Assembly (NCBI GenBank): GCA_003024175.1
Contig: MDYQ01000002.1
Location: forward strand, 62,001-126,000
Length of the DNA: 64,000 bases
Direction of reading: 5' to 3'
Origin: Planoprotostelium fungivorum
Lineage: Eukaryota; Evosea; Variosea; Cavosteliida; Cavosteliaceae
Part shown: positions 29,695 through 64,000 of the stretch, in pieces
Layout: each line of letters opens with the position of its first letter
How positions within the stretch are numbered: position 1 is the first letter of the stretch
Notes under the pieces: model-generated
Database searches by the model: none
Told to the model about the DNA's origin: nothing
Seen by the model: only the letters and a program-made list of their open reading frames with translations
Made by a program: the position numbers and the translations under genes

Positions 29695-30344
29695 GGTGCT
29701 CGTCTGTCGCTGCTGTTGCTGCGCTGAAAATGAGTCGAAGGCCAGCCATTCCTCCACAGACGCCTGTACGGTGAGGTGCCTGGATCAGGATCACCTCAGA
29801 GAGGCGTTAGCTCCTGTTAGGTCGGAACGTAGACGAGCTACCCACGGGGGCTGCACAGTCGACAGCGAGAGTTGTCTCGCGACACCTAAAGACACTCGCG
29901 AAATTTCATCTCTCTGTGTTATTCCCATTAACGAATCCTCTGGGAGACTCTTAAATGTCGTCGCAAGCTAGCGGAGCATATATTGTGACAAAAAATCAAC
30001 GTGGTCGAGTGGTAAAGCAGTTCCTCAGGGACAGGTCATCCAGCGCTTGGGCGCTGTTACGCTAATGCCTCTATAAAATCCCTGGGTGGGTGGTGATTGC
30101 GACATCATGGATGGAGAATTGGTTACATCCGATGCCCACACGTGCATATGTGGTATCAGCTGCTATTAATTCATTCCATCCTTTCTATAACAGGCCGAAC
30201 AGCGACATCACATCGCACGGCATGTGATGTTCCAAAGGTCGTGGGCACACTAATAGGTTGTAAATCGGATGGAATTCACGACCAATTTTAGGTCACATCA
30301 TCACACCCCGAAGCCGCTCTCTCCTCTCATGCCATTCTGAGATT
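29695..30344. other. Intergenic, no supported gene
   Basis: No coding exon supported. At about 30000-30080 there is a structured-looking stretch (CGTGGTCGAGTGGTAAAGCAG and the hairpin AGCGC-TTGG-GCGCT), discussed under rejected items. Confidence 0.35.
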
Positions 30345-39799: not shown

Positions 39800-40166
39800 T
39801 GAACAACTTTACATTGCAATGATTTCTTCACAAGAAAGAGCAGATGATCACCAATGCCACTGACAGAAACAACTGACTGGATAAGGGGGATATACTAGCA
39901 GAGAATTTGCATCAAACCAGCAGAGAGATTGGAACTCTTCTCAACAGGCAGTAATGCAAGGGTAACATTGCTGTTTGCAGGATCACAGCAAAGAGAGGCA
40001 AATGGAATAGTGAGGAAATCAAGAGGAGGCTTTGGAATAGCCTTCAGAAATAATTTGGTTTTTTCTGGATGTTCAATGGACATATCATGCATTTGGTCAC
40101 ACTTTTTTTTGTGAAGTCAGAATAGAAGTGATCCATCTTCAATGTACCATTTGACTACCAACTGGA

Positions 40167-40775
40167 AAGGGTGGTGGCTAAGAGGCAGGAATTATACGCA
40201 ACATTTTCTAAATTGCATTTTGGTCTCTGAACACTATAGGATGATGCACTGTGCTCTCAAAGTGCTCTATGTGCGGTTGGATCGATTTTTCAAAAAAATT
40301 TTGGTACCTTTGGTGATGATTTTGTCCAAAAGCTAAACAGCAGAAGCAATTTTAACGCCAACTTGACGAAAAAGAGAGAACACGGAGCAAATGAGAGACA
40401 TGTATTTTCTCTTTATTTCCCAACTACTTCTAAGTGATGAGACGAGGTTCTCACAACTGATAGCACTTACAGTCAGACACCTTCAGTAGGATAATGGTCA
40501 TCATATTGAAGCAGAGAATGGAGAAATTCAATAAAATATTTCGCAAATGAGGGGCAGTGATCTCTCTTTTTTGTCAGGTTGGCGTTTTTTGCTGTGTTGC
40601 ACATAGTGCTACTGCTGTTTCGCTCATTGCATTAATTTAGTCAATGAAAATGCTACGTAGGTATGGTCACATATTGATGGTATAGTTGCTCAAAACGCTA
40701 AAGCAATTTAGCTGAATAAGAGAAAGTGATTTAGCTGAAACTTGCGTATAATTCATGCCTCTTAGCCACCACACC
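40167..40775 (+). mobile_element. Element B, about 609-bp non-autonomous DNA transposon inserted in MITE A
   Basis: The ends are inverted repeats of about 33 bp: left GGTGGTGGCTAAGAGGCAGG with AATTATACGCAA, right (other strand) GGTGTGGTGGCTAAGAGGCA with TGAATTATACGCAA. The 8-base word CAACTGGA flanks both sides (40159-40166 and 40776-40783), a target-site duplication of hAT-like length. Inside lie two further inverted segments (see the inner element). No coding capacity. Confidence 0.7.
40337..40597 (+). mobile_element. Inner inverted-repeat element within element B
   Basis: Left ACAGCA...ACGCCAACTTGACGAAAAAG (about 40337-40380) pairs with the reverse complement of 40555-40597 (ACAGCA...ACGCCAACCTGACAAAAAAG). 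This is about 260 bp with 35-40-bp imperfect TIRs. It is either a third, younger insertion or the folded core of element B. No clear target-site duplication. Confidence 0.5.
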
Positions 40776-41078
40776 CAACTGGAGACACCAAACTCAAAGC
40801 AGATTTCAAAATGAAGTTTTTTGATATATATATGCAACAATTCAGAGATTTGGACAAATATCCATTTTCCACTTTTCAAGCAAGTGGCTGCAATTGCAGT
40901 TGAAAAATCATTTGAAAAGATTGAGTTGTAAGGAATAAATCTACATATCAAATGACATCATTTAAGTTGATGAAATCTGCTCAATAATTGAGTGGACATC
41001 TCATATGCCAACATCAGCATACAATCATTGATTCTATCTCAAAATTTTTGTGTTCACAGACAAGAATATTTGTCCATT

Positions 41079-41207
41079 TGATTTGGGGTTTCTGGTTGGT
41101 GTCCATGCATTTGGATCACTAACTTTTTGTTGTGCATATTCCAGTGGTCAGGAAAGAAGTGATCCATTTCAAGGCACCATTTGGCTACCAACAAGAAACC
41201 CAAATCA
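41079..41207 (+). mobile_element. MITE family A, copy 2 (intact)
   Basis: 129 bp. Left TGATTTGGGGTTTCTGGTTG, right (other strand) TGATTTGGGTTTCTTGTTGG. The internal sequence matches the reverse complement of 4787-4918 throughout. Confidence 0.75.
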
Positions 41208-41921
41208 TTTACCCAAATTATTGTATATGAAGAATTGCCAATATTTTGAAATACATCATCAATGATGTGAGATGAATAACAATCACCCAAAAGATCCTTC
41301 CTTGTGTGTAAAGGAGTAGAACGCTGATGACCACCACTCATCTTTGACACAGAAAACTGCCCATGAGTGATTGAGATTTTGAGATACATTTGAACCACAA
41401 GCATAATCATACCCAAGCATGAACACCATAACACCCAAATGTACAAAATAGCGCCTTTGCCAAAATAGGAGAAAAGTCAAATATGAAATGACTAAGTGAC
41501 TTTTGCATGATGTGCATTTGAATATTTCTAAAAGTCAAACGGTATCTACTGTGTTTCCTGCATGACATCACATACAAACTCCTTAGCATCTCAAGTGAAC
41601 AGCAAGAAGATATCATGTTGATGGTTCTTTCACCAAACAATAATAGGGACTACTGTTCATCATCTTGAAACAATGTGCAAGATGGATGGTGAATAAGAAA
41701 GATTGAGGTCACTGTGCCTTTCAGGCCATATGAAGCCTTGACAAAGTTATCAAGAATCACCTTGAATAGTTTTCCTTATATGTCTTTCAACAATATTGGT
41801 GGAATGTTGGCCTGAATGCGGCAATTCACTCATCGCGAGGGCGATGTTTTTCACCAAAATATGAGAGGACGTCGTTGTAGATCACACCGTATCCGAAGAA
41901 AGCATCTTTTACATCCCGAAG

Positions 41922-43923
41922 ATGAATCGTCTGTCGGCAGGGTTGAAAGTCGCTCACTGCTCCACCTTCCAAAGGACCAGACCCATCACCCTTCTTCGTA
42001 CTCACAAGAACATGTCTACGGTTGGCATCAACATTGGCAGCCGTCCAGAAGATGAAGCGCGCGCCGTTGGCTCACGCGTCAAGAAGTTTCTTACGGTCGA
42101 GAACTTGAACCCTCGTGTAGTAGAGGCCGAGTATGCTGTCAGAGGAGAGCTCGTCATTCGAGCGGAAGAACATCAAAAGACGTTGAAAGAGCAACAGGTG
42201 CGGACATTCTCGTTCGAGTTCTGATGGATGACAGACTTCCGGCGTTAGAAAGCTTCCTTTCGATGATCTCGTCTTCTGTAACATTGGAAACCCACAGTCA
42301 TTGCAGCAGAAACCGTTGACGTTCTTCAGACAATATCTGTCTTTGATGGAAAATCCAGATCTCTTAAAAGAACCTCTCATCGAGAAGATCTATCCCGCCG
42401 ATGTGAGGACGCATCCAACACCCTTCCTCTTCTTCCATCCATCGACATCACATCGTCTCACATACACATCAGGTCATTCGAAGGGCCAAAGATCGTATCT
42501 CCAAATTCCCAGGCACCGGTGCTTACTCTCACAGCAAGGGCCTCCCCTTCGTTCGCAACGCCATCGCTCAATTCCTCCACAAGCGAGACGGCATCCCTGC
42601 CAACCCAGAGGACTTGTACCTCTACAACGGTGCCTCACCCGCCGTACAGAACGCTCTCAGATTATTTGTCAAGGGAGAAGAAGACGGAGTGAGATTTCGA
42701 CGGAATTTCAAATGCTGATCTTCATGCAGATCATGATCCCCATTCCACAGTATCCACTGTACTCTGCATCTATCAAGTTGCTGGGAGGAACACAGTTGGG
42801 ATATTACCTCGACGAAGAGAAAGAATGGTCCACAGACATCTCCGAGCTGGAAAGGTGACGTTCTACACCGTTGTAGATGGAATATTCACCGGAAGCAGAG
42901 TCTACAACGACAGCGTGTCGAGGGGCGTCACCCCACGCGCCCTCGTGGTCATCAACCCTGGTAACCCCACCGGTCAGGTCCGTCTACAACGCGCCGCTCT
43001 CGTTCACCCCCCACAGGTACTCAGCGAGGCCAGCATGCAGGCCGCCATTCGATTCTGTCAAGAGAAGAAGGTCGTCCTGATGGCTGATGAAGTGTACCAA
43101 GAGAACGTGTACATCAAGAAGGACAGACCCTTCAACTCTTTCAAGAAGGTGATGACGTGTTATGACGTCATTTAATAAGTTAGGTGATGTACAATATGGA
43201 AGAGAGATTTCACGGGTTGGAGTTGTTCAGTTTCCACTCCATATCCAAGGGCTTCCTGGGAGAGTGTGGTCACCGCTGCGGTTACGTGGAGGTACGTACG
43301 ATCACGTGATCAGATCACGTGACACATACAGATCACAAACGTCGACGAAGAAGTGAAGGCACAGATGTACAAGCTGTCTTCCATCCTTCTCTGCCCCAAC
43401 ACCTCCGGTCAATTACTGGTGAGTCCATCGCCCTCACTTCTCACAAATGTCGACACAATTGTAGATGGAGTGCATGGTCGATCCACCGAAAGAAGGAGAC
43501 GAATCCCACTCTCTCTACGTCAAGGAGAGAGATGACATCTACGATTCTTTAAAGAGGAGAGCTCAGAAGCTTACAAACTTCCTCAACACCTTGGAAGGAG
43601 TCACGTGTAACTCTGCAGAAGGTGATGGAATTCTATAGAAGACGATTGATGGTGGTGTAGGTGCCATGTATGCCTTCCCCCAGATCAGACTGCCCGACAA
43701 GGCCGTCGCCGCCGCGAAAAAGGTGGGAAAAAAACCGGACGATTTCTACGCCATCCGTCTTCTAGACGCAGCCGGTGTGGTCGTGGTGCCTGGATCGGGT
43801 TTCGGACAGAAGGACAACACACTCCACTTTAGAACTACCTTCTTACCCCCCGAGAGCCAGATCGAGGGTGTCATGAAGAGATTGGGAGAATTCCACAAGA
43901 AGTTTATGGATGAATACAGATGA
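41922..43923 (+). CDS. Alanine aminotransferase
   Basis: PLP enzyme: L-alanine + 2-oxoglutarate to pyruvate + L-glutamate. ATG 41922 starts MNRLSAGLKVAHCSTFQRTR, basic and Ser-rich like a mitochondrial presequence; an internal Met (MSTVGINIG) could give a cytosolic form. Then NPRVVEAEYAVRGELVIRA, FCNIGNPQSLQQKPLTFFRQ, GAYSHSKGLPFVRNAIAQFL, MIPIPQYPLYSASIKLLGGT, ALVVINPGNPTGQ (Asn that binds PLP), VVLMADEVYQENVY (Asp/Tyr) and SFHSISKGFLGECGHRCGY with the PLP Schiff-base Lys. ILLCPNTSGQ and VVVVPGSGFGQ follow; it ends MDEYR. Full length, about 480 residues after splicing. Around nine introns, some with GTTGTAG or TGACGTCAT motifs. Confidence 0.95.
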
Positions 43924-44211
43924 TCGAGTCGATGAAGATGATGATGTCCTTTCATGTGTGGAACGATTTGGGAGATGACGATCGTCTGTTTCAGAGAAGA
44001 TTCTCTTTCATCTCTCCACCGTGGTAGTGAAGGGAGCGTCAGACTGGTTCGTTGCCATTGAACAATATCGGGATCCCGAAAGTGAATTGCCGATGAAGAA
44101 ACATTATCCGCGCGACGCACGACAACCCCGCTGAATGTGCCCGAAAGATTGTCAAGCTCGGGCGGCACATTATAGACACTCCCCAACTACTCACAGTCCT
44201 CACACGACAGG
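43924..44211. promoter_or_regulatory. Intergenic between ALT and Stealth genes
   Basis: A short head-to-tail gap carrying the ALT 3' UTR and the Stealth gene promoter. No repeat or exon supported. Confidence 0.35.
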
Positions 44212-46152
44212 ATGACACCTAACTCACAACGTCTCACGCTTCACCTGGCCCTGCTATGTACGATCGTCGCCGCATCATTGCCTTTCCAAGATGATGGAAA
44301 GTGCACCGAGGCGAAGGAGATGAAATTGGACGATGTCAGATACGTTCGTATGGAAGAGGCCATAAAGGGGATGAAGTTGGATGGATGGGAGGAAGAATGG
44401 ATCTCTTCCGGGCGGACTTCCCACAAGTTTCAGAAAGTACCAAAGATCGATTTTGTTTACACGTGTGAGTGAGGCGAAATCGTACTGCATAGATGATCAA
44501 GACGTATCTGCATGACATCATGAAGAAATGTGAAATGTGCAACGATGGACTGACGGATCGTAACAGGGGTCAACGGATCAGACCCTTATTTTACGGAAAC
44601 AGAATCGGCCTATGCCGGCGTCTATTCAAAAGACCGCAGATGGCAGAAGAACCACAAAAACCACCGGTGGAACGAGTTAGACGAACTCCGCTATGGAATT
44701 CGTTCTGTCTGGTCGTTCGCGCAAGACTTTCTCAACAACCTCTTCATTATTGTCAATGAGGTGATCCCCGTCACGAAACATCGGGTCTAAACCCAGTTGT
44801 TGAAGACATAATGACAGGTTTGGGACGGAGAAAAATGGATCGATCAAGTGCCATCATGGTTCAACTCGGAGAAGGATAATGAGAGGGTCAAGATCATCGG
44901 AACCAAACAGATCTTCCGCGAAGAAGCGAAAGATTGTCTGCCGACCTTCAACAGCAACACCATCGAGACTCAACTCCACAACACACGCTCATCGGTCGAC
45001 ATCGTGAGCTCCCATCTTCCTCCTCCACCTCATTTCCATCAGTTTGTGGCCCTGTCGAACGACATGATGCTGGGGACAGACCACTCCGCTTCAGATTTCT
45101 ACTCTCCTCTCTTTGGTCTCACTCTTGGTTTCGGCTACGAGACACCACCCAACAGACAAGTGCCATTCTCAGAATCCGAAATCAGCTCCCTTCCCGCCAA
45201 CGACATCGCAATTGGGACGTCCAGCTTCATGCTGTCCAGATTATTTGGAATTCGAACCCGGCTGACACCCTACCACTTTGGTCACGTGATGTCGAGGTCA
45301 CTCACACACGAGGCCTTTCACAGCTTCCCTCAACTATCACTCACTTCCTCCTTGTCCAGATATAGAAACGATGCGACCCAAATGGACACGTGGTTCCTGA
45401 CTTCCCACTACGTCATGGAGCGTTTCAGGGAAGCCCTCCTCTGGTCTTACTTATCGCTACGCATGGACTCGGACGGTAACGGCATCATCGACTTGATGGA
45501 GAGAAAGGCCATCATCAAAGACATCATCAAAGTCAAGTACCAACCGGGCTACATGCGAACCCACCGACAGCTCCACTTCGAGATGGATGAGGTGCTCCAC
45601 GGTGCAGACCTTCCTCCCACCATGGCTGAGACCATCCGCTGGACCTCCATGGACGGCCCGGTCGGCATGGACGTTCAGTGTCAGTGGTTCAACCCAGAGA
45701 CCTGCTTCTCACACTCTGACGTACCTGGAAACATCACGATCGAACGAGCTCTCGACAATTTCGTGCGATCGAACACGCAGTGCGGAGACTGTACCATTCA
45801 GAGGCTGCTGCAAGATCATCCAAGGGGATACGAACCACTCTTACCCCCACGAGAGAAGGTGCAAGAGAGAGATATGGCCATCAAGGCCATACGTCGCTAT
45901 CAGTACTCGGTTGTACCCAACAGCATGTCTCGATTTGTCTCTCTGAAGGGGGAGATGGATGTACCTCTCCTGAAGAAGAGAGGAGGAGACATTAAGGATA
46001 GTTTACATTCACCGGTAGTACCGCAGTACTGCTTCAACGATGACCTGAACGAGAAATTGACGGAGGAGATGGTAGAGAGGACGAAACAAAATTTGTGGCA
46101 TTTTTATGAATCGATCGCCAGCGTCCCGACACCATTCGAGAAGAGAGAATAA
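44212..46152 (+). CDS. Stealth-family phosphosugar transferase (GNPTAB-like) with EF-hand
   Basis: ATG 44212 with a hydrophobic N-terminal anchor (LHLALLCTIVAASL). Stealth CR1: KIDFVYTWVNGSDPYFTETE (spliced across 44467-44570). CR2: DELRYGIRSVWSFAQDFLNN and FIIVNE. CR3-like: DCLPTFNSNTIETQLHN and FVALSNDMMLG. Then an EF-hand-like DSDGNGIIDLMERKAI at about 45466-45513, placed as in the animal lysosomal GlcNAc-1-phosphotransferase. Length is about 580 residues. Family role: transfer of a phosphosugar from UDP-GlcNAc to glycoprotein mannose or to surface glycans in the Golgi; in amoebae this would fit lysosomal enzyme tagging. The NDD motif of CR3 reads NDM here, so activity should be tested before it is assumed. 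Confidence 0.82.
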
Positions 46153-48586: not shown

Positions 48587-49247
48587 ATGCTCGAGCAGCG
48601 AAAGAACAGCATGAAGGCCAGAAAGGCCAGACACGAGTTTAACGTTTCCCTAGAGAAGGCAGCAGACCAAAAGCAAGCCGAAAAATTGGCCAGAAAGAGA
48701 CAGGTGATGCACAGCCTCTGTATGAGGTCTCACATATGTGACAGCGTCAAGAAACAGAGGAGGCCCACACGACATCCGCTCTGTTAAATCCTCACAAACA
48801 ACGAAGAACGGACAAGCAGACCTCTGTCTCGACCACCGATCGTGCCGACACCTTCATGGTGGACGTTGACAACTCCGTCTACGCCTCTGGAATCGAAAAC
48901 GCCAAGCCCGTTCGCAAGGTGATCTTCAATCATGGAACCCCTCTCCTCTCATCGATTGCATTCAACCACTATGTTCCATCCATCTTTTCTCATCCATCTC
49001 CTCATTGTTCTCACTCTTCGTACAGGTCAGAAAATACAAGTTGAAGGCCGCACGTAAAGCCGAGAAGGAGAATGAGATGCAGGAGGAGGAAGAGACCATC
49101 GTAGAGAAGCTCGCCAGAACCACTCCAGATCTCGTCGACCCAGAAGTCAAGCCAAAGCCTCCTTCAGCAGCCGCGGCTGCCATCAAGAACTCGAGGAAGA
49201 GAGGAGGAAACAAGGAACAGAAGAAAGCGGATGCCATGGACGAATAA
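48587..49247 (+). CDS. Small basic Lys/Glu-rich protein, unrecognised
   Basis: Three exons: MLEQRKNSMKARKARHEFNV with SLEKAADQKQAEKLARKRQ; then ETEEAHTTSALLNPHKQRRT with DTFMVDVDNSVYASGIENAK; then VRKYKLKAARKAEKENEMQE and KPPSAAAAAIKNSRKRGGNK, ending AMDE (49247). The product is about 165 residues with alternating basic and acidic helices and a KRGGNKEQKK tail, suggesting a nucleolar or ribosome-associated protein. No named family is recognised. Confidence 0.5.
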
Positions 49248-49386
49248 ATAGAGGATGTATCGAGTGATGGACGTTACACTTGAAGAGGAGATGATGAACC
49301 CAGTTTGGCGAAATTTCAACCTTTCCATTCCAATCAATCTGTCGAACACGAAGGTCGACGTCGCATGCGGCAATATCGGTTGAAAC

Positions 49387-50080
49387 ATGGAGAGGAAGAA
49401 GGAAAACAAGGTGAAGATTGAGGGTCGACGTCTGGAGAGTGAGCATCCGACTGATCTTTCGCTCACATCAGCTCAATCAAATGAGGACAGTGACGATGAA
49501 TACTCGGTGAGACTGAGCAGCAAAGACTTTTTCTTACTTCCGTAAGCAGCTACCGAGAAGCATCACACTCATCGCGTCTCCCTTCGTCGACAAACGGAAT
49601 CAAAATTAAGATGAAGTGGGTGCGTCATCCCTTCTCGCATTAAACCGTTCAGAGACCATCAAAATGCAAAAGACATCACTGAGATGTTACTCGATGCATC
49701 CACCACGACTGTGATAGGTCACGTATCAGCCAACGATCTTTTCTCGAATCAGAACGACTGTAGCTCTCTCACGCCAGCTGCCAAGCCTGGTAAAAAGAAG
49801 AGACGGAGATCTAAAAAGCACATCATCGTATGTGAGGAATGTAAAGATGGTGGAACACCATGCGATAAAGGTGGTGAATTGATCGAAGGTTCCAACACTG
49901 AACATCGTCACAGGACAGATTTGTAGATCCTGTTATGAAAGAGGCACGATGTGCATCCGCCAGCGATTGGCGATGAGTCGTCAAACAAGCGAAGCTCCAC
50001 AGAGAAAGAAGATCAAGGAGGAAGGACCAACAGGGAAGATCTCACCATCCGAGTTACATGAGCCTCCTCCTCTAATTTGA
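49387..50080 (+). CDS. Zn(II)2Cys6-type transcription factor
   Basis: ATG 49387 (MERKKENKVKIEGRRLESEH). A later exon has KPGKKKRRRSKKHIIV followed by C-EE-C-KDGGTP-C-DKGQI-C-RS-C-YERGTM-C, an exact C-x2-C-x6-C-x5-C-x2-C-x6-C binuclear zinc cluster formed across an intron (about 49870-49913). A basic tail (RKKIKEEGPTGK) ends EPPPLI at 50080. About 150 residues, with no room for the fungal middle homology region. The junction between the first and second exons is not fully certain. It should bind CGG-type half sites in the nucleus. Such fingers are common in fungi and also occur in dictyostelids. Confidence 0.7.
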
Positions 50081-50267
50081 ACGTTCGCACAGACACGAAT
50101 ACATGCTTACTGTGGACTCTCCCCTGACTTTTGTATCTCTTGCTCCATTCAATTCGTTTCGTTGAATTTGTCTTGAGTAGGAACAATTATGTCAATCCTT
50201 GTCGTACAGCGGGTCATTTCTGAATCGTTCGGGTCAATTTCAACGTAGAGGCGTCCAGATCAACCGC

Positions 50268-53200
50268 ATGGGGAGTATCCTCTGTTTGGTATTACTCCTC
50301 TCTCTCATCGGGGCGGCCATCGCCTCGACGGGAAGAGATGCAGCCTGTCTATCGGATCGATTGATGGATGTGAAGGCGGGAAAGACTCCTGTAAGAGGTG
50401 TGAACCTGGGATCATGGTTGGTGGTAGATTATAGGACGGTACCTCAGCTGTGGGATGATAATGGATGTAATCATACAATCTACCCTGAACAACAAGGACT
50501 CGAGAGATGTCTCGGCTCTCGTGCCTCTGTGGTGAGATGAGGTTTCTGAAGCAAAGGGATTAAGAAGCGATAGGTATTGGAAGGACACTGGTCTAGTTTC
50601 ATCACAGAGGTGGACTTTGAGAAGATGTCGGTGCAGGGAGTTAATTCGGTCCAACTTCCTATCGGTTGGTGGCAGATCTACGAGTCGGTATGTATCATAT
50701 AAATCATCTCACCGTTAGATGTTGACTTGAAATCCAGGACAGAGTGAAAGAGAACCCCCTAGTCCAAATCGATCACGTTCCAGGTGCCCTCTATTATCTT
50801 GAGAAGGCATTTCAATGGGCGGAGTCCAATGGCATCGGTACGCTTGCATCGTCCCTCCAATTTCTGACGTTTGAATACAGCCATCACACTGGAATTGGGT
50901 GCTCTCAAGGCTGTTGAGAAGTCACAAATCAAGGCTTCCTTCAATCTCTTCACGTCTCTGTATGTTTCATCAAAGGGCTTTGTGGAGGTTTTATTGGAAG
51001 AGGACCCAACTTTCGAGTGGGCTCATTCCGATCGGTCATCGTACTCATAAACCTCAGATACCCCCTCTACGATGGACACTCCAACAGCTGGCACCCCCAC
51101 GAGAACCCTCTCCTTCTCTCCTGTGAGGCAGAGAAATCCCATCTCACTCCCATCATGTGAGATCATCTCCACCTCCGCCCTTCGATTGAAAGACATCTGC
51201 AGGAACTTCGTGCCCCACATCAATCTCACAGACATACCACCCGAGCCTCTATGCATTCACGATCGCCTGAAGTCAGTCCGAAACGGCTCTATCCCCCTGA
51301 GAGGTGAACTCTCTCATTTGAACGCGACAGTTCACTCCATACAATACGTATTCACCATCACGACAGGTGCGAGTTTACACGGATGGCTCCTACTGGAGAG
51401 CTTCTTCACTTCTTATCTGTGGAAAGACAACAACTGCGACTCTTCCCTCAATCCGGGCACTTGGCTCTTCCAAAAGGTCCCTCCTTTTCAAGTCATTTCA
51501 TCTTTTTCTCAATCCATTCCAGAATTGTTTCGGGGACGATCCATCGGGTGAAAAGGCTGCCAAGGTCTTCAGACAACATTGGGACACCTTCGTCACCGAG
51601 AAGGACTTTGAGAAGATGTTTCGCCTGGGTCTCAATTCCGTTAAACTCCCAATTCCGTGGTGGAGCATCTACGATGACATCGGTGGAGCCGTCAACAACG
51701 GTCCTTATGTCGATCCCAATCGATTCGTCCTCGGTTCACTCGAATACATCGACAATGCATTCAGGTGGGCCGAGAAGTGGGGAATCGGTGGGAACGATGA
51801 CGCGTGATGACGTCACTGATGTTCCCAGGAATTCTCCTCGATTTCCACGCGGCTCCCGCCTCACAGAATGGAAAGGAAGGGTCTGCACCACCGGGTGTCG
51901 ATCAAAACTATTGGGCACAATGGCCAAACAACGTGGCGAGAGGTGTAGATGCTGTGACGAGGTACGTGGCTAGATATTCTGGCAGCATCGCCTTCCTTGG
52001 AATGTCCGTTGTAGATGCACCGGATAATTCGTATCTTGGGAGTTATCAGCAGGCGGCCGAGAGCAATCGACCCGGGTGAGTTGAAACTTCTGTGGAAATT
52101 CGGGATAACGAGGGCAGGTATTTCAACACGACATACTATATTATCAAGAAGGCGTGTCCAGATTGTATCGTCATCTACAATTTCCCACCCAATGTGGACA
52201 GAGACAACCAGCCGTGGAAAGATATCGTTCATCAAAACAACTATCATTTCGGTCAACACACTTACTTCTGTTGGGTGAGTCATCCGATCTACACCAATGT
52301 AGATTGATGACCCCGCAGAACGACGGCTCAGATCAACACATCCTCGGCGATATCAAGAATAACGTTGCGAATAACATTTTGAACACACGGAAGTATTGGG
52401 GAAGGAATGTCATCATCGATGAATTCTCCGGATGCAGCAAATACCAAAACCGTACGAGAGACTACCTCCGTGCCCAGCTGGACGTGAGATTTCCCCGAAA
52501 TTTCGGGGGAAACTCAACGATTCCAGGCGTACAAAGCTGCCGGTGTGGGCTGGTTCTTCTGGATCTGGTCGTACAACGACCAAGACGAGTGGAGCATGCA
52601 GACAGCTGTCGACAAGGGGTACATACTCCCCTCAGACATGCAGACCATCACCTGTCCCATATCAAATATCTCAGCCGAACGACCCTGTCAACACTGTCAG
52701 GCTTTGACAGATATATTCAATAATGCCGGGGGAATCAGCTGGAAGAGCATGATGGGGTGGTACCTACCCATCACCAGCCATCTACAGTATTGTAGATTCA
52801 GAAATATCGAATGTGATCCAGTCACGAACGACATAGTGGGAATCGAATTCGTCGATAACGATCTGACCGGTGAGTGATGACGTAGTGTGACGCGTGATGA
52901 TGTCATCAGGATCTATCGACGCCATCTGCAGCCTGACGGGATTGAGGCGGCTGAATATCTCCGGAAACGTTGGTTTGACTGGAAATATTCCGGTAGATAT
53001 CGGCCGTCTACAACGATTAGAGACGTTGAACCTCAGCTCGAACTCGTGGGTTGATCGAAATTTCGCATTACGTTGACCGTTGTAGTTTGACGGGAACCAT
53101 ACCCCACTCTCTCACCAACATCACCACTCTCAAGTACGTCTATCTATCCTGGAACAACTTCAAAGGTGAGACGTCTTTTCACGCCCCGTCTGATATCATA

Positions 53201-56200
53201 CCCAGGGGAAATTCCAAGAACTTTCTCGAATCTGCTTCGTCTGAGGGAAATAGATATCAGTTACAATCAATTCTCCGGAGATCTTCCGGACCTCAGTAAT
53301 TTGGTGAATCTGACGGTGATCACTTGACTTTCGTTGTAGATGGATGACATCCTCACAGACAGTGGACGTCAGCAGGAACGATTTTTCCGGTGATTTTCCG
53401 AGGCTAGACAATTGTACGCGCCTGGATACGCTTCACGTGGAGATCAACCGACTCGATGGGTATGTGACATCGAAATTTCTCCGAAAACTCATCGAAAACT
53501 CAGTGTCATACCGGACACTCTGTGTCAGGCGAGATCTCTGAAGATATTATATTTTCACACGAATCAACTGAAGGGCTCCATTCCTCAATGCTTTGGATTT
53601 TCACTTCCGAACCTAACGCAGATCATGGGCAGTAATAATGCTTTATCTGGAGCGGTGAAGGAGATTTCATCGAATTTTCTCTCAACAGCCTGTTGTAGAT
53701 ACCTAAAAAGACGGTGTGTCCATCGTTGGTCTTTGTGTGGATGGGGCAGAATCGGTTCACGGGCAACATTCCAGACTTTTCGGCTTGCTCTTCTCTGACC
53801 ATATTGAACATCCCCGACAATCGATTCGGAGGTGGTATTCATCATCTACAACGAGCCATTCACCCCGACAGGTACCATTCCCGAGTGGCTGGGTAACCTC
53901 AAGAGCATCTCTGAGATCGATTTGGGGTGAAATTTCACGCAATTTTCCGTGGCTGACAGGTCGTGATAGGAACACGGGCCTCACGGGTACAATTCCGGCT
54001 TCCCTGGGAAACGCACCGAACGTTGCCATCTTAGCTCTCCCCTCGAATAATCTTCAAGGAACAGTGAGTGTGACGTGTGATGACCTGTGATGACGTCATC
54101 AGCTTCCCAACATATTTGGTAATTGGTCTAAACTGAATACGATCAACGTGCAATCGAACCAACTAGAAGGAGTCGTACCCACAGCTTTGTTCCAGGGGTC
54201 ACAGATCACCACCATCAAGTGATTCCACTTGAGATTTCCAACTCATCTACAACGAACACAGGTTGAGCTTCAACAAATTTTCCGGTACTATTCCCGTCAG
54301 CCTGGGGAGCGATTCCACCAACAACATTCAGACGTTCATGCTGTCCAACAACAACTTCACCGGTCTATTTCCCGCCCAACCCAACATGTACGCTCTATCC
54401 GTGCTAGACATCAGCAACAACAGCTTCACGGGCAATCAGTGGGGTTGGATGGTCACTCTCAATGCCGTGCAATACATCGGTGATTTTATTCTATTTTATT
54501 GTTCGTTGAAGATCGACAGACCTATCGGGCAATCAGTTCAGTGGAGTCCTTCCCCCCCTGGACGGTCTGAAGCTCATCACGAGGTTCGTTGTAGATGGAT
54601 AAAATTTCATCTCATTTTCGCAGATTCATCGTGCGTAACAACAGTTTCACGGGTAGATTTCCCGTCTTCAACACACAGGCACCTCTCGATTACATCGATT
54701 TGGTGAGTTGTAGACGGTCGATTTTCCTCACCTCTCTGCAGTCTCACAACGCGTTCTACGGAACACTCGATTCGATCACAGGGAAACCCTCTCAAGTCCA
54801 AACCCTCCTGCTGAATAACAACAAGTGAGTTCTCGGTGAAATTTCATCTGACGCGTACAGTTTCACCGGAGTATTACCCCCTCAGGTTCAGAACTTACCC
54901 CTCCTGCAGACACTACAATTGCAAAATAACGAGCTATACGGTATATCATCGTCTCATTGTCTTAGATGACACAGACAGGTCTCCTACCACAGACCATCTC
55001 TACACTCACTCGTCTCATTTCTCTCAAGTTGGATAACAACAGGTGATGACGGAAATCTCATTGAAATTCCGCTCAATTCTCACAGTATCGACGGACTGAT
55101 ACCCAGCATGGACCCCCTGGTCAATTTAGAGGTGGCGCAGATTCGCAAACTGCGACTGAAATTTCCAGGAGTTTACCGCGGCGAACAACAACATCGTATC
55201 TGATATCACAGGTCTGACTCGTTTGCCCAAACTTCAGGTGATCGTGACTACGAAATTTCTCTGACTTCTCCCAGATCATCGATCTGTCCTACAATCATAA
55301 CTTGAACGCTACGATCCCAGAAGCCATACGTAACCTGACGTACTTGTCTATTTTTAGACTCTCCGGGTGCAACATGACCGGGAGAATACCCAATCTAAAG
55401 GGCCTCCGACAATTATCCGACCTATGTCTCGACGACAACGATTTCGAGGGAGATTTTCCACCCCACTCGGTTCGTTGTAGATCGATGACGTCATCTGACG
55501 TCACGACCAGGCTAATCCCATTCGTTTGTTACTGTCGAAAAATCGACTCACTGGCCCACTTGACTTCCTCTCTTCGATGACTTCCATCACGGAACTGCGG
55601 GTAAACCACAACCAATTCTCCGGCAATTTCCCGGATTTATCCGGTAAGAAGGCATTGAGAGTGGTGGACACGTCGTACAATCAACTGACCGGTGAGTCGA
55701 GTGAAAATTCACGGAAAACTCACGACGAAAAGGAAATGCGTACGCTTTTGAAGGCATGAATAATCTCGTGTCGGTCAATCTGGTGAGTTCCTCCGATAGA
55801 TTCGAATTTTGAATTTCGAAAAAGGAGGGAAATCAGCTGTCGGGTAATCTACCTTCCGTACGTGGCAGTGAATCTCTCGAGGTGAAGATTTATATTTATC
55901 ATTTCATGAAAAGACATTTCATTCATCACATCCAGACCCTGAAATTATCCAACAATCAATTCTCCGAAGCTTCTCAATGGCCCTCCATACCCTCCAGCAT
56001 CAGAGTGAGTCGTAACGAGATTTCCCTCACATTCCAACGGATTCCCTCAGCATTGTGACTTGACGGGCAATTCCTTCTTGTGTCCCGTGGCCTGGGACGC
56101 CATTACGCAGTGTAACGCCACCTGCAAAGTAGAAGACGAGAACTCGGGACAATTTGAGATGAGAATCCAGGGCAGTCTCGATACCTTTGACGGTACAAAT

Positions 56201-58326
56201 TTCATCCGTATCTTAGCCAAGGTGAGAGGAAGAGAACAAGGAGAGAGTGATACAATGCAGGTGGCCAACGTGAGTGAGACGAGATTGCACTACGTGCATC
56301 CACCGAGAGCGGGGAGTGTCATTGTAGATGTGGGAGTCGATGCGCCACCACAAGGGTATGCTGTTATACGTCATCACACGTCATCCAGTAGGAGTGACAG
56401 TGAACAGGAGTGTAAACGAAGGGTCTTCCGCCAGAGTCCTCAGCTTCTTAGGCACACCCCTCGCTGCGTCATCTCTTCTCAACAACAGCATCACCGTCTT
56501 GAACTACACCAACTACATCCCCACGCCAGGTAAATCCCATCGAAAAGTCATCGAATGACATCGTACAGTGACATCGAAGCAAGACAAGGCACAAATCGGT
56601 TGGATCGTCGGTGCAATCGTGGGAGGTATTCTCATCTTATCTCTATTGGTTCTCGTCGTCTATCTCTTCAGAAGGAAGAGGTGAGTCGTTGTCGCTGTCT
56701 GTTGGGTGATTCACCATGGATAGGCACACGAAGGTCATCATGCCACAGACCATCGATATGACTGGTATCAATCTGGGCGTGGCAAAGAAATCATTGGTGA
56801 GTGACAGACTACAACGAGGCAGAAACTGAAGCGAGACAGATCAACTATGATGAATTAACAGACATGATTGTGAGAGGAGAGAGAATGTGAGGGGAGATTG
56901 ACAGAGAATAGGAAGTAGGATCGGGTGCCTATGGAATTGTATTCAAGGCCGTGTGGAGAGAGCTGAACGTGGCTGTCAAGCAGGTGAGATGTCGTAGATA
57001 TCTTGTGGAAGTGCCGAGGACTGAAATTCACGTAGATTCGATCGGAACATGTCTGCCGAGAGCAATTGGAGGATTTCTTGAAAGAGGTATGACATCGTGT
57101 GACGTCACATGACATGTCTGATATGATATGACAGGTAGCCATCTTGCAAGGACTGAGACCCCATCCCAACGTAGTCATGTTCATGGGTGAGATGAGACAA
57201 GAGAAAGAGAAAGAGAGGCTGACAGAGACAGGAATGACGATACCACCACAACCACTGACTATGATCACGTGAGAGATGACATGAGATGGTGTAGAGGTGG
57301 TATGACTGATGAGAGACAGTGAGTACTGCGAGGGAGGAAGTCTGTATCATTATCTGAGAGAGAACAATTTGAACTTAGATCACAAGATCAAGTTGATCGT
57401 CGGTATCGGTGAATTACAAATGTGAGATGACTATATAGTGACGTGATACAGCACTGGGCATGTTACATCTGCACAAAGAGGGCATCGTGCACAGAGATCT
57501 TGCAGCCAGAAACATCTTGCTGACAAAGTTCTTGGAGCCAAAGGTGTCCGACTTTGGACTGAGCAGAGAGACGACAGCGTCAGAGAACAGTGGGGCAAGG
57601 ACAGCACGCAGAATAGGACCGATCAAGTGGATGCCGCCTGAGGGTGAGCGAAAGAGAGAGAAGGAGTGAGATGATGCTGACGTGAGAGACAGCACTGCGA
57701 GACTTGATCTACTCGCACAAGTCAGACGTGTGGTCGTTTGGTGTTGTCATATGGTGAGGCTGATCTTCTTCTCTTTTGACATGGACAGGGAGATCGTCAC
57801 CGTGGATGAACCTTACGGAGAGATGGCACCGGTGGAAGCTGCACTTGCCATTGTAGAGGGTACGTCAACGTCTTCATCGTCCATCACATCACGATCGTCA
57901 ATCAGATGATGATGTCTAACTCAACATCTTGTCCGACTCATGACAGGTCGACGTCTACACATTCCAGAGACCGAAGAGACCCTCCAGATGCTCATGAGAG
58001 GTAGTCCCAAACATTGAAATGTCGCTGACTTCCACAGCCTGCTGGGCCACCGAGCCCGAGCACCGTCCCAATTTCGCCACCATCAATCGGATGCTGTCGC
58101 CACAGGATGACTTCTCATCGACTCACACGGGCAGCATGCGACTCGGAGGATTCACAAAGTCCATGGATGAAGATCACGTTCTGACGGAGCCCTATCACGA
58201 TCAGGTGAAGGTCATTTGAGATGGATGAGAGCTGAGATGAAGTAGGGATACAGCCAAAGTCAATACGCCGACGTCATGTTTTCGGATGAAGAGGATGATG
58301 ACGCGCCTCTTCTAAATCGGGGTTAA
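50268..58326 (+). CDS. Receptor kinase: truncated GH5 + degenerate GH5 + LRR array + TM + tyrosine-kinase-like domain
   Basis: Signal peptide MGSILCLVLLLSLIGAAIAS. The first GH5 module starts normally (GVNLGSWLVVDY; VNSVQLPIGWWQIYE; FQWAESNGI) but then runs into AITLELGALKAVEKSQIKAS and a Ser/Thr/Pro linker, lacking DLHAAPGSQNG, NEP and DEW. A second module (about 51380-52740) has GLNSVKLPIPWWSIYD, LLDFHAAPASQNG, FLGMSVVDAPDNS (NEP lost) and IIDEFSGC (nucleophile Glu kept). Then an LRR array (about 52780-56040) with NNxFTGxxP repeats. TM: QIGWIVGAIVGGILILSLLV then LVVYLF and RRKR (56589-56682). Kinase (56900-58110): GSGAYGIVFKAVW, VAVKQI, EGIVHRDLAARNILLT, VSDFGLSRE, PIKWMPPEA, with all catalytic residues present; HRDLAARN is the tyrosine-kinase form. 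It ends DDAPLLNRG. Around forty introns. Confidence 0.88.
56589..58110 (+). other. TM helix and active TK-like kinase domain of the GH5-LRR receptor
   Basis: Subfeature. The helix is followed by basic RRKR (stop-transfer), a short juxtamembrane segment NYDELTDMI and then the kinase. The catalytic loop at about 57489-57512 and DFG at about 57553 are intact, so this receptor should signal by phosphorylation, unlike the GPS receptor at 15834-18739. Confidence 0.85.
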
Positions 58327-58590
58327 CAAAGCTTGAGAAGTCAGTTCTCTCTTTGGAGATGTAGCAACACAATAGAATAAAGTAAAGAAGGAAAGGTAGA
58401 TCCACAGAGGTCGAGTCCTTCTAAGTCCTCTATAGAAGTGTGGCTGTGCTTCACACGAGGAGATCCTTCTCGACGAACCCTGAACATGCGTGCCCTTCAG
58501 ATGTGTTTCTTTCTTAGATTCACATCAAACCTGACTACCCGTCACACCTGCCAGACCGCAGTTGAGAGGGTTCACACAAACATCAATCAG
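58327..58590. promoter_or_regulatory. Intergenic between tandem receptor genes
   Basis: A 264-bp gap with AATAAA near 58375, likely the polyadenylation signal of the upstream receptor. The promoter of the second copy must lie here or in the upstream gene's 3' end. An in-frame upstream ATG at 58438 could start a longer 5' leader. Confidence 0.45.
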
Positions 58591-61500
58591 ATGGCAGCAA
58601 TCACCTCTCTGGTGTTCTTCCTTCTGGTGTCTATAGCTGTCGCCCTCACCGACCCGGGGGATGCATCGTGTCTGTCAGCTCGTCTGAATGATGTGAAGGC
58701 GGGAAAGACTCCTGTAAGAGGAGTGAACCTGGGGTCATGGCTGGTGGTAGAATACTGGATGGTACCTCAGCTGTGGGATGATAACGGATGTAATCATACC
58801 ATCTACTTTGGACAACAAGGACTCGAGAGATGTCTCGGTTCCAATGCCTCTTTGGTGAGAGGATGAGACGGAGGAAGGAGATTGAAGAGAGTAGGTATTG
58901 GAGGGACACTGGTCTAGTTTCATCACAGAGACAGACTTTCAACAGATGTCGGTGCAGGGAGTCAATTCAGTACGGCTTCCTATCGGTTGGTGGCAGATCT
59001 ACGAGGTGACAACACGATTTGACGACAACCCCATTCTGATTTACGAAGGATATCACGGACGCACCTCTCATTCCTCACAATTACACGACAGGTGCCTTTA
59101 AATACATCAAGAGTGCATTCAAATGGGCCAAGATCAATGGAATCGGTAATGTAACCCCAACCCCCATACATTGACATCATACAGCCGTCACGTTAGACCT
59201 TCACGCTGCTCCTGGGAGCCAGAACGGGAATGAGGACAGTTCTCCCCTCAATGCGGGTGACATGCGATTCGACCAAGGCGATGTGTACGTCTCTCAAGCC
59301 GTCGCCTCCGTCTACAATTTCACACGTCGCTTCGCCTCTCACGACTCCTTCTTGGGATTCGCCCTCCTCAATGAGCCCGCATCGAACATCAATCAGACGC
59401 GATTGATCGAGTGAGATCGATCGTCTTCTCATCTTACACCTGATGGTCGCTCAGGTATTACGAGAGAGCTTATACCGCCATTCGCAGTGTCCGAGATGAT
59501 CTCATCGTGATCATCTCACCTCCCATCAACCAAGATGGGACGGAGGCAACGTGGATCAACGCTCTCGCCTCTCCTTCCTTCACCAACGTGTGGCTGTCTA
59601 GACACTATTACACTTGCAAAGTGAGTGACACAAATGAAGCGGGAGAGTCACTGAAACTATTAGATGTACCAGGACTATGTGGCAGCCGGTGATAGTGACA
59701 GGATCAACAACATATTGGTCGACGGTCAACAGAAATTGAACAATTACAAACAAGTGACATGAGAATGATCGTTGTAGATGGATGACGTCATCAGGTCAAC
59801 GGTAAACCTCTCGTTGTAGATGAATGGTCTCTCTGTGGAATTTCCCTGAGAAATTCGAAAGAATTGGCAGACGCCATGTCTCAGGTACCCTCCCCTCCTC
59901 TCACTCTTTTTCTGACCTCTGACCGAAGGTACTCTCCACGGCAACAGGAGGTTGGAACTTCTGGAGCTGGAGGACTTTTGGAAATTTCTCACAATATTCC
60001 ATGCTCGACGCGTACAGTAACGATTGGTTCTCGTCCGATTTCACGTCCATCACTCCTTGTCACGACAATTCTTCCAGTCTCATCACCACACAGACCAATA
60101 CCTTCCCCAGCAGGTGTGATGACGTCACGATCTGTCACGCTGACGAATAGTCCCCCGATGTCGCAGTTTGTACCTCCCAGCAGTACGTCAGAGATTCCAC
60201 CGCAGCTGACCTGCACCTACGATCGTCTCAGGGCCGTAAGGAATGGTACCGTTCCTCTCCGAGGTAGGTTTCATTGCATTGTTACTGTTTCATTGAAATA
60301 CGACTGTTCCATTCAAATGTGACACGTACAATTTTGTCGTGTGACCTTGTGCAGGTGGTGGGTTACACGGTTGGATTCTCGTGGAAGAATATTTCACACC
60401 CCAACTGTGGACGGATAATTTCTGCAATTCTTACGATTTCCCCGGAAGTTGGCTGCTCCAAGTGAGTCGATCCTCTTCTGAGAAAACTCACGGAAAACTC
60501 GCAGAAATGTCTGGGTGACAGGGCCTTCGGCGTGTTCGACCAACACTGGAACACTTTTGTCACTGAGAGAGACTTTCAAAAGATGTTTCAATTGGGTCTC
60601 AATTCTGTCAAATTGTCCGTTCCCTGGTGGAGCATCTACGACACGGTGGGTGGAGCTGTCAACAGTGGAGACCCTTACGTAGATCCCAACACGTTCGTCC
60701 TCGGTTCACTCGAGCACATCGACAACGCATTCAGATGGGCGGAGATCTGGGGAATCGGTGGGTGTGATGACGTCATCACACGTCACTCATTACGTCAGGT
60801 GTACTGCTCGACATGCACGCCGCACCGGGATCGCAGAATGGACAATCAGGCTCGGCTCCAGCTCAACCACGTTCGAACTTTTGGGCATCGTACCAGAATA
60901 ACATCGATAAGACATTAATCGCCCTCGATCTATATTTGGATCGCTATTCGCAGAATTCAGTCTTCTTGGGTGTCTCCATGCTGGACAATCCATCCGGTAT
61001 GGATACTCGCGTGTTGATCGGACAGTGAGCAGAAATTTCATCGGGATATCAGATTGACAGGAGTAGATATTACAAACCGGCATACAACAAAGTGAAAGCG
61101 AAATGCCCGGAGTGTATGGTCATCTACAACGCACAGAACGGTGAGACGGGAACCGAGGACAATTGGAAGAAATTTCTACCAGACGCCCGCGATCTCTATT
61201 ACGGTCAACACACGTACCACTGCTACGTGAGTTTTGACATCATCTACAACGTTGTAGATCGACTCACTCCACCAGGACAACTCTTACGGAACGACCGACG
61301 ACGAGAAGATCGCCAACATCAGAACCAAGAGGAAACAACAGATCATAGATGTACAAGCGGCAACGAAACGTAAGATGATCATCGATGAATGGACCGGTTG
61401 TGGTGTATCCCCCGAACGCACCGGTGACGTCATTCAAGCCCAGCTCGAGGTGAGATTCCATCGAAATTTCCGCGAGATCTCACACGAACAGGCGTACAAA

Positions 61501-64000
61501 TCGGCTCAGGGAGGGTGGTTCTTCTGGATATGGTCGTACAACTTTCGCGATCAGTGGAGTTTGCAGAGAGCCTTTGACAACAACTACATCACCACAGACA
61601 ACGTCACAACGATATCTTGTCCACTCATCGTCAACACGCCCGATCCCAACTGTGTTCACTGTCAGTCTCTCACGGAGATCTACCAGAATACTTCCGGTGA
61701 GAGGATTCGCGGAGAACTCGTGGAGAACTCGTGGGTGACGTATACAGGGCACGCCTGGAAGAGTATCATGGGGTGGTACCTCCCGATCACCAGCTCGCAG
61801 CAGTATTGTCAGTTTAAGAACATCATCTGTGCGAATGGAACGAACGACATCTTAGAGATGAGTTTCGTCGATAATGGTCTGTCCGGTGAGTACGGGACGT
61901 ATCGTACGTATCATGACGTCATCAGGGAATTTTCCCGCCTCTTTTTCCAAGATTACGACCTTGAAGAGGTTGGTCATCACGAGGAACAGTGATCTGACGG
62001 GTGGTCTTCCCTCTGATATCGGCAATCTACAACGCTTGCAAGTGTTGGATCTATCTTTCAACTCGTGGGTGAAATGAAATTTTGAGCTACGCTGACTCGT
62101 TGTAGTTTGACAGACAGCATACCGAGGAGCATCGGATCGTTATCCTCTCTGACTTATCTTAACCTCACCAACAATCAATTCACGGGTGAGAAAATTCGTG
62201 AAATCTTGGACTGAAGATTCCAGGAAAAATACCGAGAGAAATGTCAAAATTGTCCAAGAAAATTCGAACGATCTCCCTCAGTCAAAACCACTTCACCGGC
62301 CCCCTCCCTGACATCAGCAGTATGTCCCTCCTGCAGGTGATCATCCGTCGAGCGTTGTAGATGGTGAAATTTCATCAGCGTTTCCACGCTCGCTCCAATT
62401 CTTTTTCGGGAGATTTTCCCAGCCTGGATAACTGTACATCCCTCGTAGAGATCCACTTGGAAGTCAACCTGCTCGACGGGTAGAACTCGATGAGAATTCG
62501 CGTAGAACTGACGGAAATTTCAGAATCGTACCACAAGGTACGTGCGGAGCGGTCAACCTGAGCGGACTGTACTTCCACACGAATCAATTGACCGGATACT
62601 TACCCCAATGCCTGGGAAATCTCAACAACTTGTCCATTATCATGGGCAGCAACAACATTCTGGAGGGCCCCGTGAGCGAAATTTCAAGTAGATCTATCTG
62701 ACATCTGTCAGATCCCCTCCATGATCGACTGTCCACGTCTCGAGCGAGTCTTTCTCGGTCAGAATCACTTCACAGGAGGAGTTCCTGATTTTTCCGCCTG
62801 CAGTCGGTTGAACTCCTTCCAAATACCGGATAATCCGCTGGGAGGTGAACCGATCTACAACGTTGTAGACGAGCTGATCGTGCGTCGCAGGAACGATACC
62901 CGATTGGTTGGGCACCATGAAGAACCTCGTATCACTCGATTTGGGGTGAGAGAATTCGGTGAAATATGGAGTTGACGTGTCTAGTAATAATATGCTGGAG
63001 GGCGGTGTACCCATTACATTGGCCAACATCACTAAATTAGAAATGTTATCTCTACCTTCGAACAACCTGAACGGAACGGTGATGTGACGTGTGATGACGT
63101 CATCTGACGTCATCAGCTCCCCGAGATCTTTTTGAACATGCCGAATCTGAAGACCATCGATCTACAATCGAATCAGCTGTCCGGACAATTACCCAATGGT
63201 TTGTTTCAGATCGGCTCGCTGGTCGTCATGAGGTGAAATGTCATCGAAATTCCTCGATCTACAACGTTGTAGATTGAGCTTCAATCAATTCTCCGGGTCC
63301 ATTCCTGCGAACATTGGTGGAGGCCCGTCGAACAACCTGGCCACTTTCATGATCGATCACAACAATTTCTCTGGGATATTCCCAGCACTGCCCAATCTGT
63401 GGAACTGCTCCGTATTTGTCATCGGCGACAACAATTTCGTAGGAAGCGAATGGAGGTGGCTGGCGTCTGTCAAGAAGCTGCAGTACTTGGGTGAGATGAC
63501 GTGTACGGTGGAAAACTGAATGAAAATTTGTAGATCTATCGTACAATATGTTCAGTGGAACGTTACCCTCCCTGGTCAATCTGAAGTCTCTCACGGGGTG
63601 AGTAGAATCATTCGTTCATCTTCTCACTTTTTTCACAGATTCATCGTACGTAACAACAGTTTTACGGGAAAATTCCCAGAATTGAACCCTTCTGCCCCCA
63701 TTGACTACATCGATCTGGTTCGTTGTAGATGACTGTCACTCTCACTCACCTTTCCAGTCTTGTAATGCATTCTACGGAACATTGGACTCCGCAGTACAAT
63801 ATCAATCACAAGTACAGACCCTCCTGCTCAACAATAACAGGTGAAATTTCATCGGATATTCTCCACTCACTCGACAGTTTCTCCGGTGTTATTCCACCCC
63901 AGATAAAAAATCTGATCATCCTACAAAACTTGGACGTACGGAGCAATGACCTATACGGTATGTCGCGTTGTAGATGTAGATCTGACCTACCGACAGGGTT
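58591..64000 (+). CDS. GH5-GH5-LRR receptor paralogue, first GH5 apparently active (3' partial)
   Basis: Tandem paralogue of the preceding gene, running past the window end before its TM and kinase. ATG 58591: MAAITSLVFFLLVSIAVALT. First GH5: GVNLGSWLVVEYWMVPQLWD, VNSVRLPIGWWQIYE, VTLDLHAAPGSQNGNEDSS, FLGFALLNEPASN (acid/base Glu), LSRHYYTC (His-Tyr) and LVVDEWSLCG (nucleophile Glu), then GGWNFWSW; this follows exo-beta-1,3-glucanase (GH5_9) wording with both catalytic Glu. A Ser/Thr/Pro linker (about 60010-60200) leads to the second GH5: LLDMHAAPGSQNG, FLGVSMLDNPSG (acid/base lost) and MIIDEWTGCG. An LRR array starts near 61860 (FVDNGLSG; LTGGLPSDIGNLQRLQVLDL; NNSFTGKFPELN). Introns carry many CTACAACGTTGTAG and TGACGTCATCA motifs. 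Confidence 0.87.

Follow-up and report, generated by a model that had tools for sequence, protein, structure and literature searches.

In plants, proteins that join a kinase to an ectodomain of glycoside hydrolase (GH) family 18 are known from 91 sequences, including tobacco CHRK1, and the ectodomain is taken as predicted active (PMC5485988; statements on this and the other papers cited here by PMC number refer to the excerpts available). Klotho, whose partner in signalling is a receptor tyrosine kinase, contains two GH1 domains, and the beta form has Asn and Ala where the catalytic Glu residues would stand (PMC10628560). Among amoebozoan species, Acanthamoeba possesses 22 protein tyrosine kinases (PTKs), seven of them with a predicted transmembrane (TM) segment (PMC4053784), Physarum has four tyrosine kinases (TKs) with full signatures, three of them with one TM segment (PMC4758236), and the nine classic receptor kinases of Dictyostelium carry GDT, DRK or TIG ectodomains (PMC1420674). 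Here, we describe a gene of the amoeba Planoprotostelium fungivorum (hereafter gene 1), which lies on the forward strand in a 64,000-nt stretch of contig MDYQ01000002.1 (positions 62,001 to 126,000, assembly GCA_003024175.1; the whole stretch is referred to as the window). Its predicted product consists of a signal peptide, two GH5-derived modules, an array of leucine-rich repeats (LRRs), one TM helix and a kinase domain, and a sugar-cutting enzyme fold, minus the full set of cutting residues, appears to have been turned here into the ectodomain of a kinase.

Just as the plant GH18 receptor-like kinases (RLKs), gene 1 combines a glycosidase-family ectodomain with an intracellular kinase, but it differs from them in the GH family, in the presence of an LRR array (none is mentioned for GH18-RLKs in the excerpt), in the loss of the acid/base residue in the second GH5 module and in coming from an amoeba (PMC5485988). 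The contrast drawn in the original prediction, according to which plant receptor kinases sense glycans through LRR or LysM and not GH5, was too strong, since GH18-kinases such as CHRK1 have been published (PMC5485988). With alpha- and beta-Klotho, gene 1 shares tandem glycosidase-fold domains outside a single TM helix and a link to receptor-kinase signalling (PMC10628560); the Klotho domains, however, belong to GH1, the kinase is a separate protein (FGFR), and Klotho is an animal protein without LRRs. All the features of an LRR receptor kinase are found in gene 1, i.e., a signal peptide, an LRR ectodomain, one TM helix and a cytoplasmic kinase, as in plants and oomycetes (oomycete LRR-RLKs: PMC10390575), but here a GH5 pair precedes the LRRs and the kinase carries the TK-like motifs HRDLAARN and PIKWMPPE. 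Finally, gene 1 resembles the amoebozoan receptor kinases (Acanthamoeba PTKs, the receptor TK-like proteins of Physarum, Dictyostelium GDT/DRK) in being a single-TM kinase, of TK type in Acanthamoeba and Physarum, and differs from them in its GH5 part, as no GH5 is mentioned in the excerpts of PMC4053784, PMC4758236 and PMC1420674.

Among the matches listed for open-licence PMC papers (titles and the beginnings of abstracts), no GH5-LRR-kinase or GH5 receptor kinase was recognisable, which is not proof of absence. Little weight is given to two other searches with two short peptide patterns: 120 stretches of genome_contigs (bacteria and archaea only) matched one of the patterns, with no relatives by tblastn, and 196 stretches of IMG/VR matched the two patterns, with no relatives either.

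Splice Model of Gene 1

The window is intron-dense eukaryotic DNA (48.5% GC, no N). Genes were predicted with a finder self-trained on the window, 16 models being kept for training; the kept models across the window comprise 284 introns with a median of 42 nt and a strong GTGAG donor. The curated model of gene 1 contains 51 exons and encodes 1953 amino acids (aa), with a stop only at the end. All 50 introns are bounded by GT..AG and are 35–87 nt long (median 43), and retention would shift the frame or add a stop for 45 of them. In the course of curation, several exons were edited by hand to recover conserved sequence that the finder had passed over or treated as intron, the paralog and the kinase motifs serving as guides; the unedited automatic model (53 exons, 1867 residues including the stop) shows the same domain order. 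In a chance control on positions 50001–58600, the finder predicted 1867 residues on the plus strand and none on the minus strand, and all of the 60 dinucleotide shuffles likewise yielded 0. The control is weak, as the training included gene 1 itself and an entry penalty suppresses short models; it sets the signal well apart from random sequence, and the correctness of single exons is not thereby established. Hydrophobic peaks above the threshold were found only in the signal peptide and the TM helix. The results agree with the original prediction that a signal peptide, many LRRs, one TM helix and a complete HRDLAARN kinase reside in one intron-rich gene: the 51-exon model is open, with matches to LRR_8 (2e-52) and PK_Tyr_Ser-Thr (1.8e-74).

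A single open frame, 52488–52877, runs through the tail of GH5 module 2 (GVGWFFWIW...) and the N-terminal LRR cap (WKSMMGWYLP...YCRFRNIEC). The automatic model had placed a 39-nt intron (52757–52795) inside the cap, and the curated model dispenses with it because the frame is open there and the paralog keeps the sequence. In the adjoining gene 2, a tandem paralog of gene 1, a 51-nt intron (61697–61747) stands between the GH5 tail and the LRR cap. From module 2 to the LRRs, gene 1 has 20 introns and gene 2 has 21, and 18 of these are common to both in place and phase; the count leans a little towards agreement, since each model was in part curated with the help of the other. Upstream of module 2, no start codon with a signal-peptide-like stretch was found in either gene; four Met residues come into question, one in gene 1 and three in gene 2, and their hydrophobic peaks reach at most 0.88 vs. 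3.1 for the true starts. On this basis, the possibility that module 2 forms a gene of its own, with another signal peptide, was rejected. The original prediction had to be checked against the possibilities that its GH5 and LRR parts are separate or that the assembly is broken between them. The former was rejected on account of the continuous open frame over the join and the same order in the neighbour, and so was a chimeric assembly, as the window contains no N and the paralog repeats the GH5-GH5-LRR order.

Within 49000–64000, AATAAA occurs at two sites. The one at 49243 overlaps the stop codon of the gene predicted upstream, and the one at 58376 follows the stop of gene 1 by 50 nt. No AATAAA lies within gene 1; the variant AATAGA is present at 53249. 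Since AATAAA was found near (−200 to +300) six of the eight predicted plus-strand gene ends looked at, and in three of these downstream of the stop, its position is only suggestive as evidence for the end of gene 1. Altogether, gene 1 is very probably a single gene with the signal peptide-GH5-GH5-LRR-TM-kinase architecture.

GH5 Modules of Gene 1 and Its Tandem Paralog

Gene 2 is cut by the end of the window and comprises therein 30 exons and 1371 aa (34 exons and 1288 residues in the automatic model). The visible part has the order GH5-GH5-LRR; the TM helix and kinase would lie beyond the window end. The two genes thus provide four GH5 modules for comparison, two of which (gene 1 module 2 and gene 2 module 1) match PF00150 above the cut-off, while the remaining two align with them; PF00150 and a weak DUF4434 are the only Pfam families found in the GH regions. 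Membership of GH18 (as in CHRK1) was rejected, PF00150 being found instead, and so was membership of GH1 (as in Klotho), since the modules are GH5. In what follows, two landmarks of the family are used, NEP for the acid/base, which is located where strand 4 ends, and DEW or DEF for the nucleophile.

Gene 2 module 1 is intact. It matches PF00150 with 2.4e-23 (83.4 bits) and 27 distinct PDB sequences, among them 8z2w (2.8e-35), with which both Glu residues are aligned. Module 2 of gene 1 is full-length and matches PF00150 more weakly (8.3e-07, 29.2 bits, cut-off 23.5); in the PDB, it finds the exo-beta-1,3-glucanase 1eqp (4.1e-27) and altogether 16 distinct sequences at E ≤ 0.001, some of which are not glucan 1,3-glucosidases. 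Fungal exo-beta-1,3-glucanases (Candida Exg 1cz1/1eqp, yeast 1h4p) are among the best PDB matches of both these modules, the likeness including the DLHxAPGSQNG region, and their catalytic Glu residues are matched in gene 2 module 1. Unlike gene 1 module 2, which lacks the acid/base and is part of a predicted membrane receptor, the proteins of known structure are enzymes to which no receptor parts are attached. The original prediction spoke of GH5_9-type enzymes of beta-1,3-glucan; the likeness to exo-beta-1,3-glucanases was seen in the PDB comparison, and the GH5_9 label for the modules is our presumption.

At the acid/base site, gene 2 has NEP in module 1 and LDNP in module 2, and gene 1 has EDP in the remnant of module 1 and VDAP in module 2. 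The nucleophile Glu is present in all three full-length modules (DEW in both modules of gene 2, DEF in gene 1 module 2). Both catalytic Glu residues, as expected of an active GH5 enzyme, are therefore present only in gene 2 module 1, and are incomplete in gene 2 module 2 and both modules of gene 1. Along with the nucleophile, module 2 of both genes has kept the HAAPxSQNG and GW-F-WIW motifs, as seen in the alignment. Gene 2 module 2 taken alone gave no Pfam match and was recognised by its alignment with the other modules.

Module 1 of gene 1 is a different case. Its identity to gene 2 module 1 is 68% over exons 1–3 and 37% over the next 78 aligned residues, and exons 4–5 show a nonsynonymous divergence (Ka) of 0.68 from gene 2. 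The module lacks its second half, with about 650–690 bp fewer than in gene 2 (50881–51240 vs. 59185–60231, from coordinates), so that in the alignment the protein jumps from the NEP-like site (EDP) to the last part of the module; it gave no Pfam match at E ≤ 0.01. Hence, the two GH5-like modules originally proposed for gene 1 stand as regards ancestry, but not as two complete modules. This truncation, the loss of the acid/base in module 2 and the tandem paralog starting at 58591 had all been missed.

Between the paralogs, module 2 shows a Ka of 0.40 with a synonymous divergence (Ks) of about 2.3 (saturated), and the LRR part a Ka of 0.41 with a Ks of 2.1. Judging from these values, module 2 is under purifying selection about as strong as that on the LRRs, which suggests that the dead-looking enzyme seems to be retained for some role. 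The idea that a catalytic fold was recruited as a sugar sensor gains from this selection, from the loss of the acid/base Glu in module 2 of both paralogs and from the retention of the cleft motifs and the nucleophile. At the same time, “sensor instead of enzyme” may be untrue of the whole family, because gene 2 module 1 retains both catalytic Glu residues.

As for the origin of the pair, gene 2 module 1 has two introns in common with gene 2 module 2 and three with gene 1 module 2. Each comparison involved 7 and 6 introns, and those counted as shared agree in phase and to within 2 residues in position; the chance expectation is about 0.2 by rough arithmetic. This sharing suggests that a GH5 unit already containing introns was duplicated internally before the two genes split. 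The 5′ ends of the paralogs (50268–50687 and 58591–59005) are far closer to each other (68% protein identity, Ks 0.62; 85% DNA identity over 50337–50684) than module 2 and the LRRs (52–54% protein identity, Ks >2, saturated), which suggests a later gene conversion or exchange between the 5′ ends.

LRR Array, Membrane-Proximal Module and Kinase

The LRR array is recognised by several Pfam families (Table 1), and some NxLxGxxP spacings suggest additional, unmatched repeats. It is followed by a membrane-proximal module reading FEMRIQGSLDTFDGTNFIRILAKVANVS...RAGSVIVDV. With Pfam, the piece from the LRRs to the TM helix gave LRR families only, and a version of the membrane-proximal module with a changed N-terminal end gave no match.

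All five kinase motifs looked for are present, i.e., the Gly loop, VAVK, HRDLAARN, DFG and PIKWMPPE. HRDLAARN and P-[IV]-[KR]-W are TK-like motifs, and the gene 1 kinase contains both, but in a comparison with the PDB (best 60 of 818 matches, without a tree), the top single-domain score was that of CTR1, a tyrosine kinase-like (TKL) protein, with 181 bits, compared with 157 for ABL and 155 for EPHA5. The score of an EGFR entry ranking above CTR1 is that of a construct with two domains, each of which accounts for about 124 bits.

Table 1. Predicted features of gene 1 and gene 2 in the window (KD, Kyte–Doolittle hydropathy).
Feature	Position	Strand	Evidence and remarks
Gene 1, receptor kinase gene	50268..58326	+	Curated splice model, automatic model, shuffle control, AATAAA at 58376
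Signal peptide, aa 1–19	50268..50324	+	KD peak 2.52 over 19 residues, 3.11 over 12
GH5 module 1, truncated remnant (first barrel half, then short tail)	50325..51156	+	Alignment with gene 2 module 1; exons 4–5 least certain in the model
GH5 module 2, full-length pseudo-exoglucanase	51203..52733	+	PF00150; PDB 1eqp
Ala codon (VDAP) replacing catalytic acid/base Glu (NEP)	52017..52019	+	Module alignment
Nucleophile Glu kept (IIDEF)	52421..52423	+	Module alignment
LRR N-terminal cap	52734..52869	+	Shares exon 12 (52527–52869) with the GH5 module 2 tail
LRR array	52910..56100 (end approximate)	+	LRR_8, LRR_1, LRR_4; 21 NxLxGxxP motifs, aa 745–1405
Cys-containing cap and membrane-proximal module	56101..56603 (borders approximate)	+	Exons 35–38
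Single TM helix, aa 1586–1604	56604..56660	+	KD 3.04
Protein kinase domain	56840..58110	+	PK_Tyr_Ser-Thr; HRDLAARN 57490–57513 (aa 1759); PIKWMPPE aa 1802
Gene 2, tandem paralog cut by window end	58591..63957	+	GH5-GH5-LRR
Gene 2 GH5 module 1, intact	58660..60113	+	NEP Glu codon 59373–59375; VVDEW Glu codon 59822–59824
Gene 2 GH5 module 2 and LRR cap	60151..61885	+	LDNP: Asn codon 60987–60989 for acid/base Glu; nucleophile IIDEW kept

Proposed Mechanism and Alternatives

We propose, with a probability of about 0.55, that gene 1 encodes a receptor kinase in which a pseudo-glucanase serves as a glycan-binding part of the ectodomain; the nature of the ligand is what we infer from the enzyme likeness, and beta-glucan of fungal prey or of a cyst or stalk wall, as originally suggested, would be a candidate. 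The N-terminal ectodomain would go back to an exo-beta-1,3-glucanase-like GH5 module that was duplicated in tandem, and the first copy has decayed to a fragment. The second copy has lost the acid/base but still possesses the nucleophile, the motifs of the sugar cleft and, as far as the sequence shows, the fold. Such a pattern is expected of a putative binder, and most likely this copy would therefore bind a beta-glucan-like chain without efficient cutting; a lectin-like role of this module is thus somewhat favoured. As in LRR receptor kinases in general, the LRR solenoid would probably add contacts with the ligand or a co-receptor. Ligand binding would bring the kinase domains together for trans-phosphorylation, with tyrosine as a possible substrate, as suggested by the TK-like motifs.

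Several points weigh against this proposal. The loss of the acid/base alone need not abolish all activity, and glycan binding is a prediction. The degraded appearance of module 1 and exons 4–5 may be a sign that gene 1 is turning into a pseudogene. Gene 1 is known only from a splice model predicted from DNA, the sharing of introns with gene 2 is not fully independent, and the join between the LRRs and the kinase is visible in gene 1 only, since gene 2 leaves the window first. Moreover, the Ks values near 2 are saturated.

Among the alternatives, the intact module of gene 2 leads to a scheme of cutting and sensing, in which this module 1 would trim beta-glucan at the cell surface, the pseudo-module 2 and the LRRs would sense the product, and gene 1 would be a non-cutting partner or decoy. 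Such a scheme accounts for the strong PF00150 match of gene 2 module 1 with both Glu residues aligned to a solved exo-beta-1,3-glucanase, and for a module 2 that looks inactive in both genes. We consider it possible but doubtful, as the TM helix and kinase of gene 2 would fall outside the window and the activity of module 1 is only predicted. More tentative is its extension to a whole receptor-kinase family carrying its own glycosidase, where an active exo-glucanase module on the cell surface would cut the glucan of prey or of the amoeba's own wall, a pseudo-copy together with the LRRs would read the product and signal via a tyrosine-type kinase, and gene 1, having lost cutting, would only sense. 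It is also conceivable, albeit rather unlikely, that the GH5 part binds no sugar at all and is a pseudo-glycosidase scaffold for a protein ligand or co-receptor. LRRs, which adjoin GH5 here, often bind peptides or proteins. The tandem GH1 domains of Klotho, with the catalytic Glu lost, bind FGF tails (PMC10628560). A protein scaffold is harder to reconcile with the retention of HAAPxSQNG, GW-F-WIW and the nucleophile in module 2.

The same degraded features allow a reading in which gene 1 makes no working receptor, being a pseudogene or a copy in decay: module 1 is truncated, exons 4–5 are only 37% identical to those of gene 2 with their high Ka, and the catalytic residues are incomplete. Nevertheless, the 51 exons contain no internal stops, all introns keep GT..AG, the kinase motifs are complete, and GH5 module 2 and the LRRs show purifying selection between the paralogs, which makes decay improbable. 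Still less credible is an artefact, with separate genes or an assembly chimera taken as one. It could draw on the fact that the evidence comes from a single contig and a DNA model alone and on AATAGA within the gene; the open frame spanning the GH5 end and the LRR cap, the same order in the paralog, and the absence of N and of an internal AATAAA speak against it.

If the proposed role of gene 1 is true, then a Klotho-like use of dead glycosidase domains as receptor parts, together with a move like that of the GH18-kinases, would have taken place outside animals and plants. An enzyme-like module and a dead-looking copy stand side by side in gene 2, adjoining a sister gene that would be fully non-cutting, which would make the step from enzyme to sensor directly testable. 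The pair could also offer a concrete candidate for the recognition of glucan walls by amoebae.

Other Features of the Window

A second predicted single-TM kinase gene, at 16065 to about 18500, has an unrelated, sequon-rich ectodomain and a Pkinase match of 5.9e-26 (cut from a merged model); it carries HGR where HRD is expected and may be a pseudokinase. Just upstream of gene 1, at 49387–50080, there is a short gene with introns, whose paired CxxC-type motifs (VCEECKDGGTPCDKG ... CYERGTMCIR) are reminiscent of a zinc cluster; a hand-joined version of it gave no Pfam match. A Stealth-domain protein (Stealth_CR2, 6.6e-18) occupies the end of a finder model at 41922–46152, where it is merged with a second gene, presumably aminotransferase-like; these are probably two genes. 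On the minus strand, 28694–29784 encodes a predicted secreted DUF5995 protein (4.1e-35). Finally, a dispersed repeat at 4786–4922, 40086–40168 and 41075–41208, with copies 76–87% identical and some in opposite orientation, may be a mobile element.

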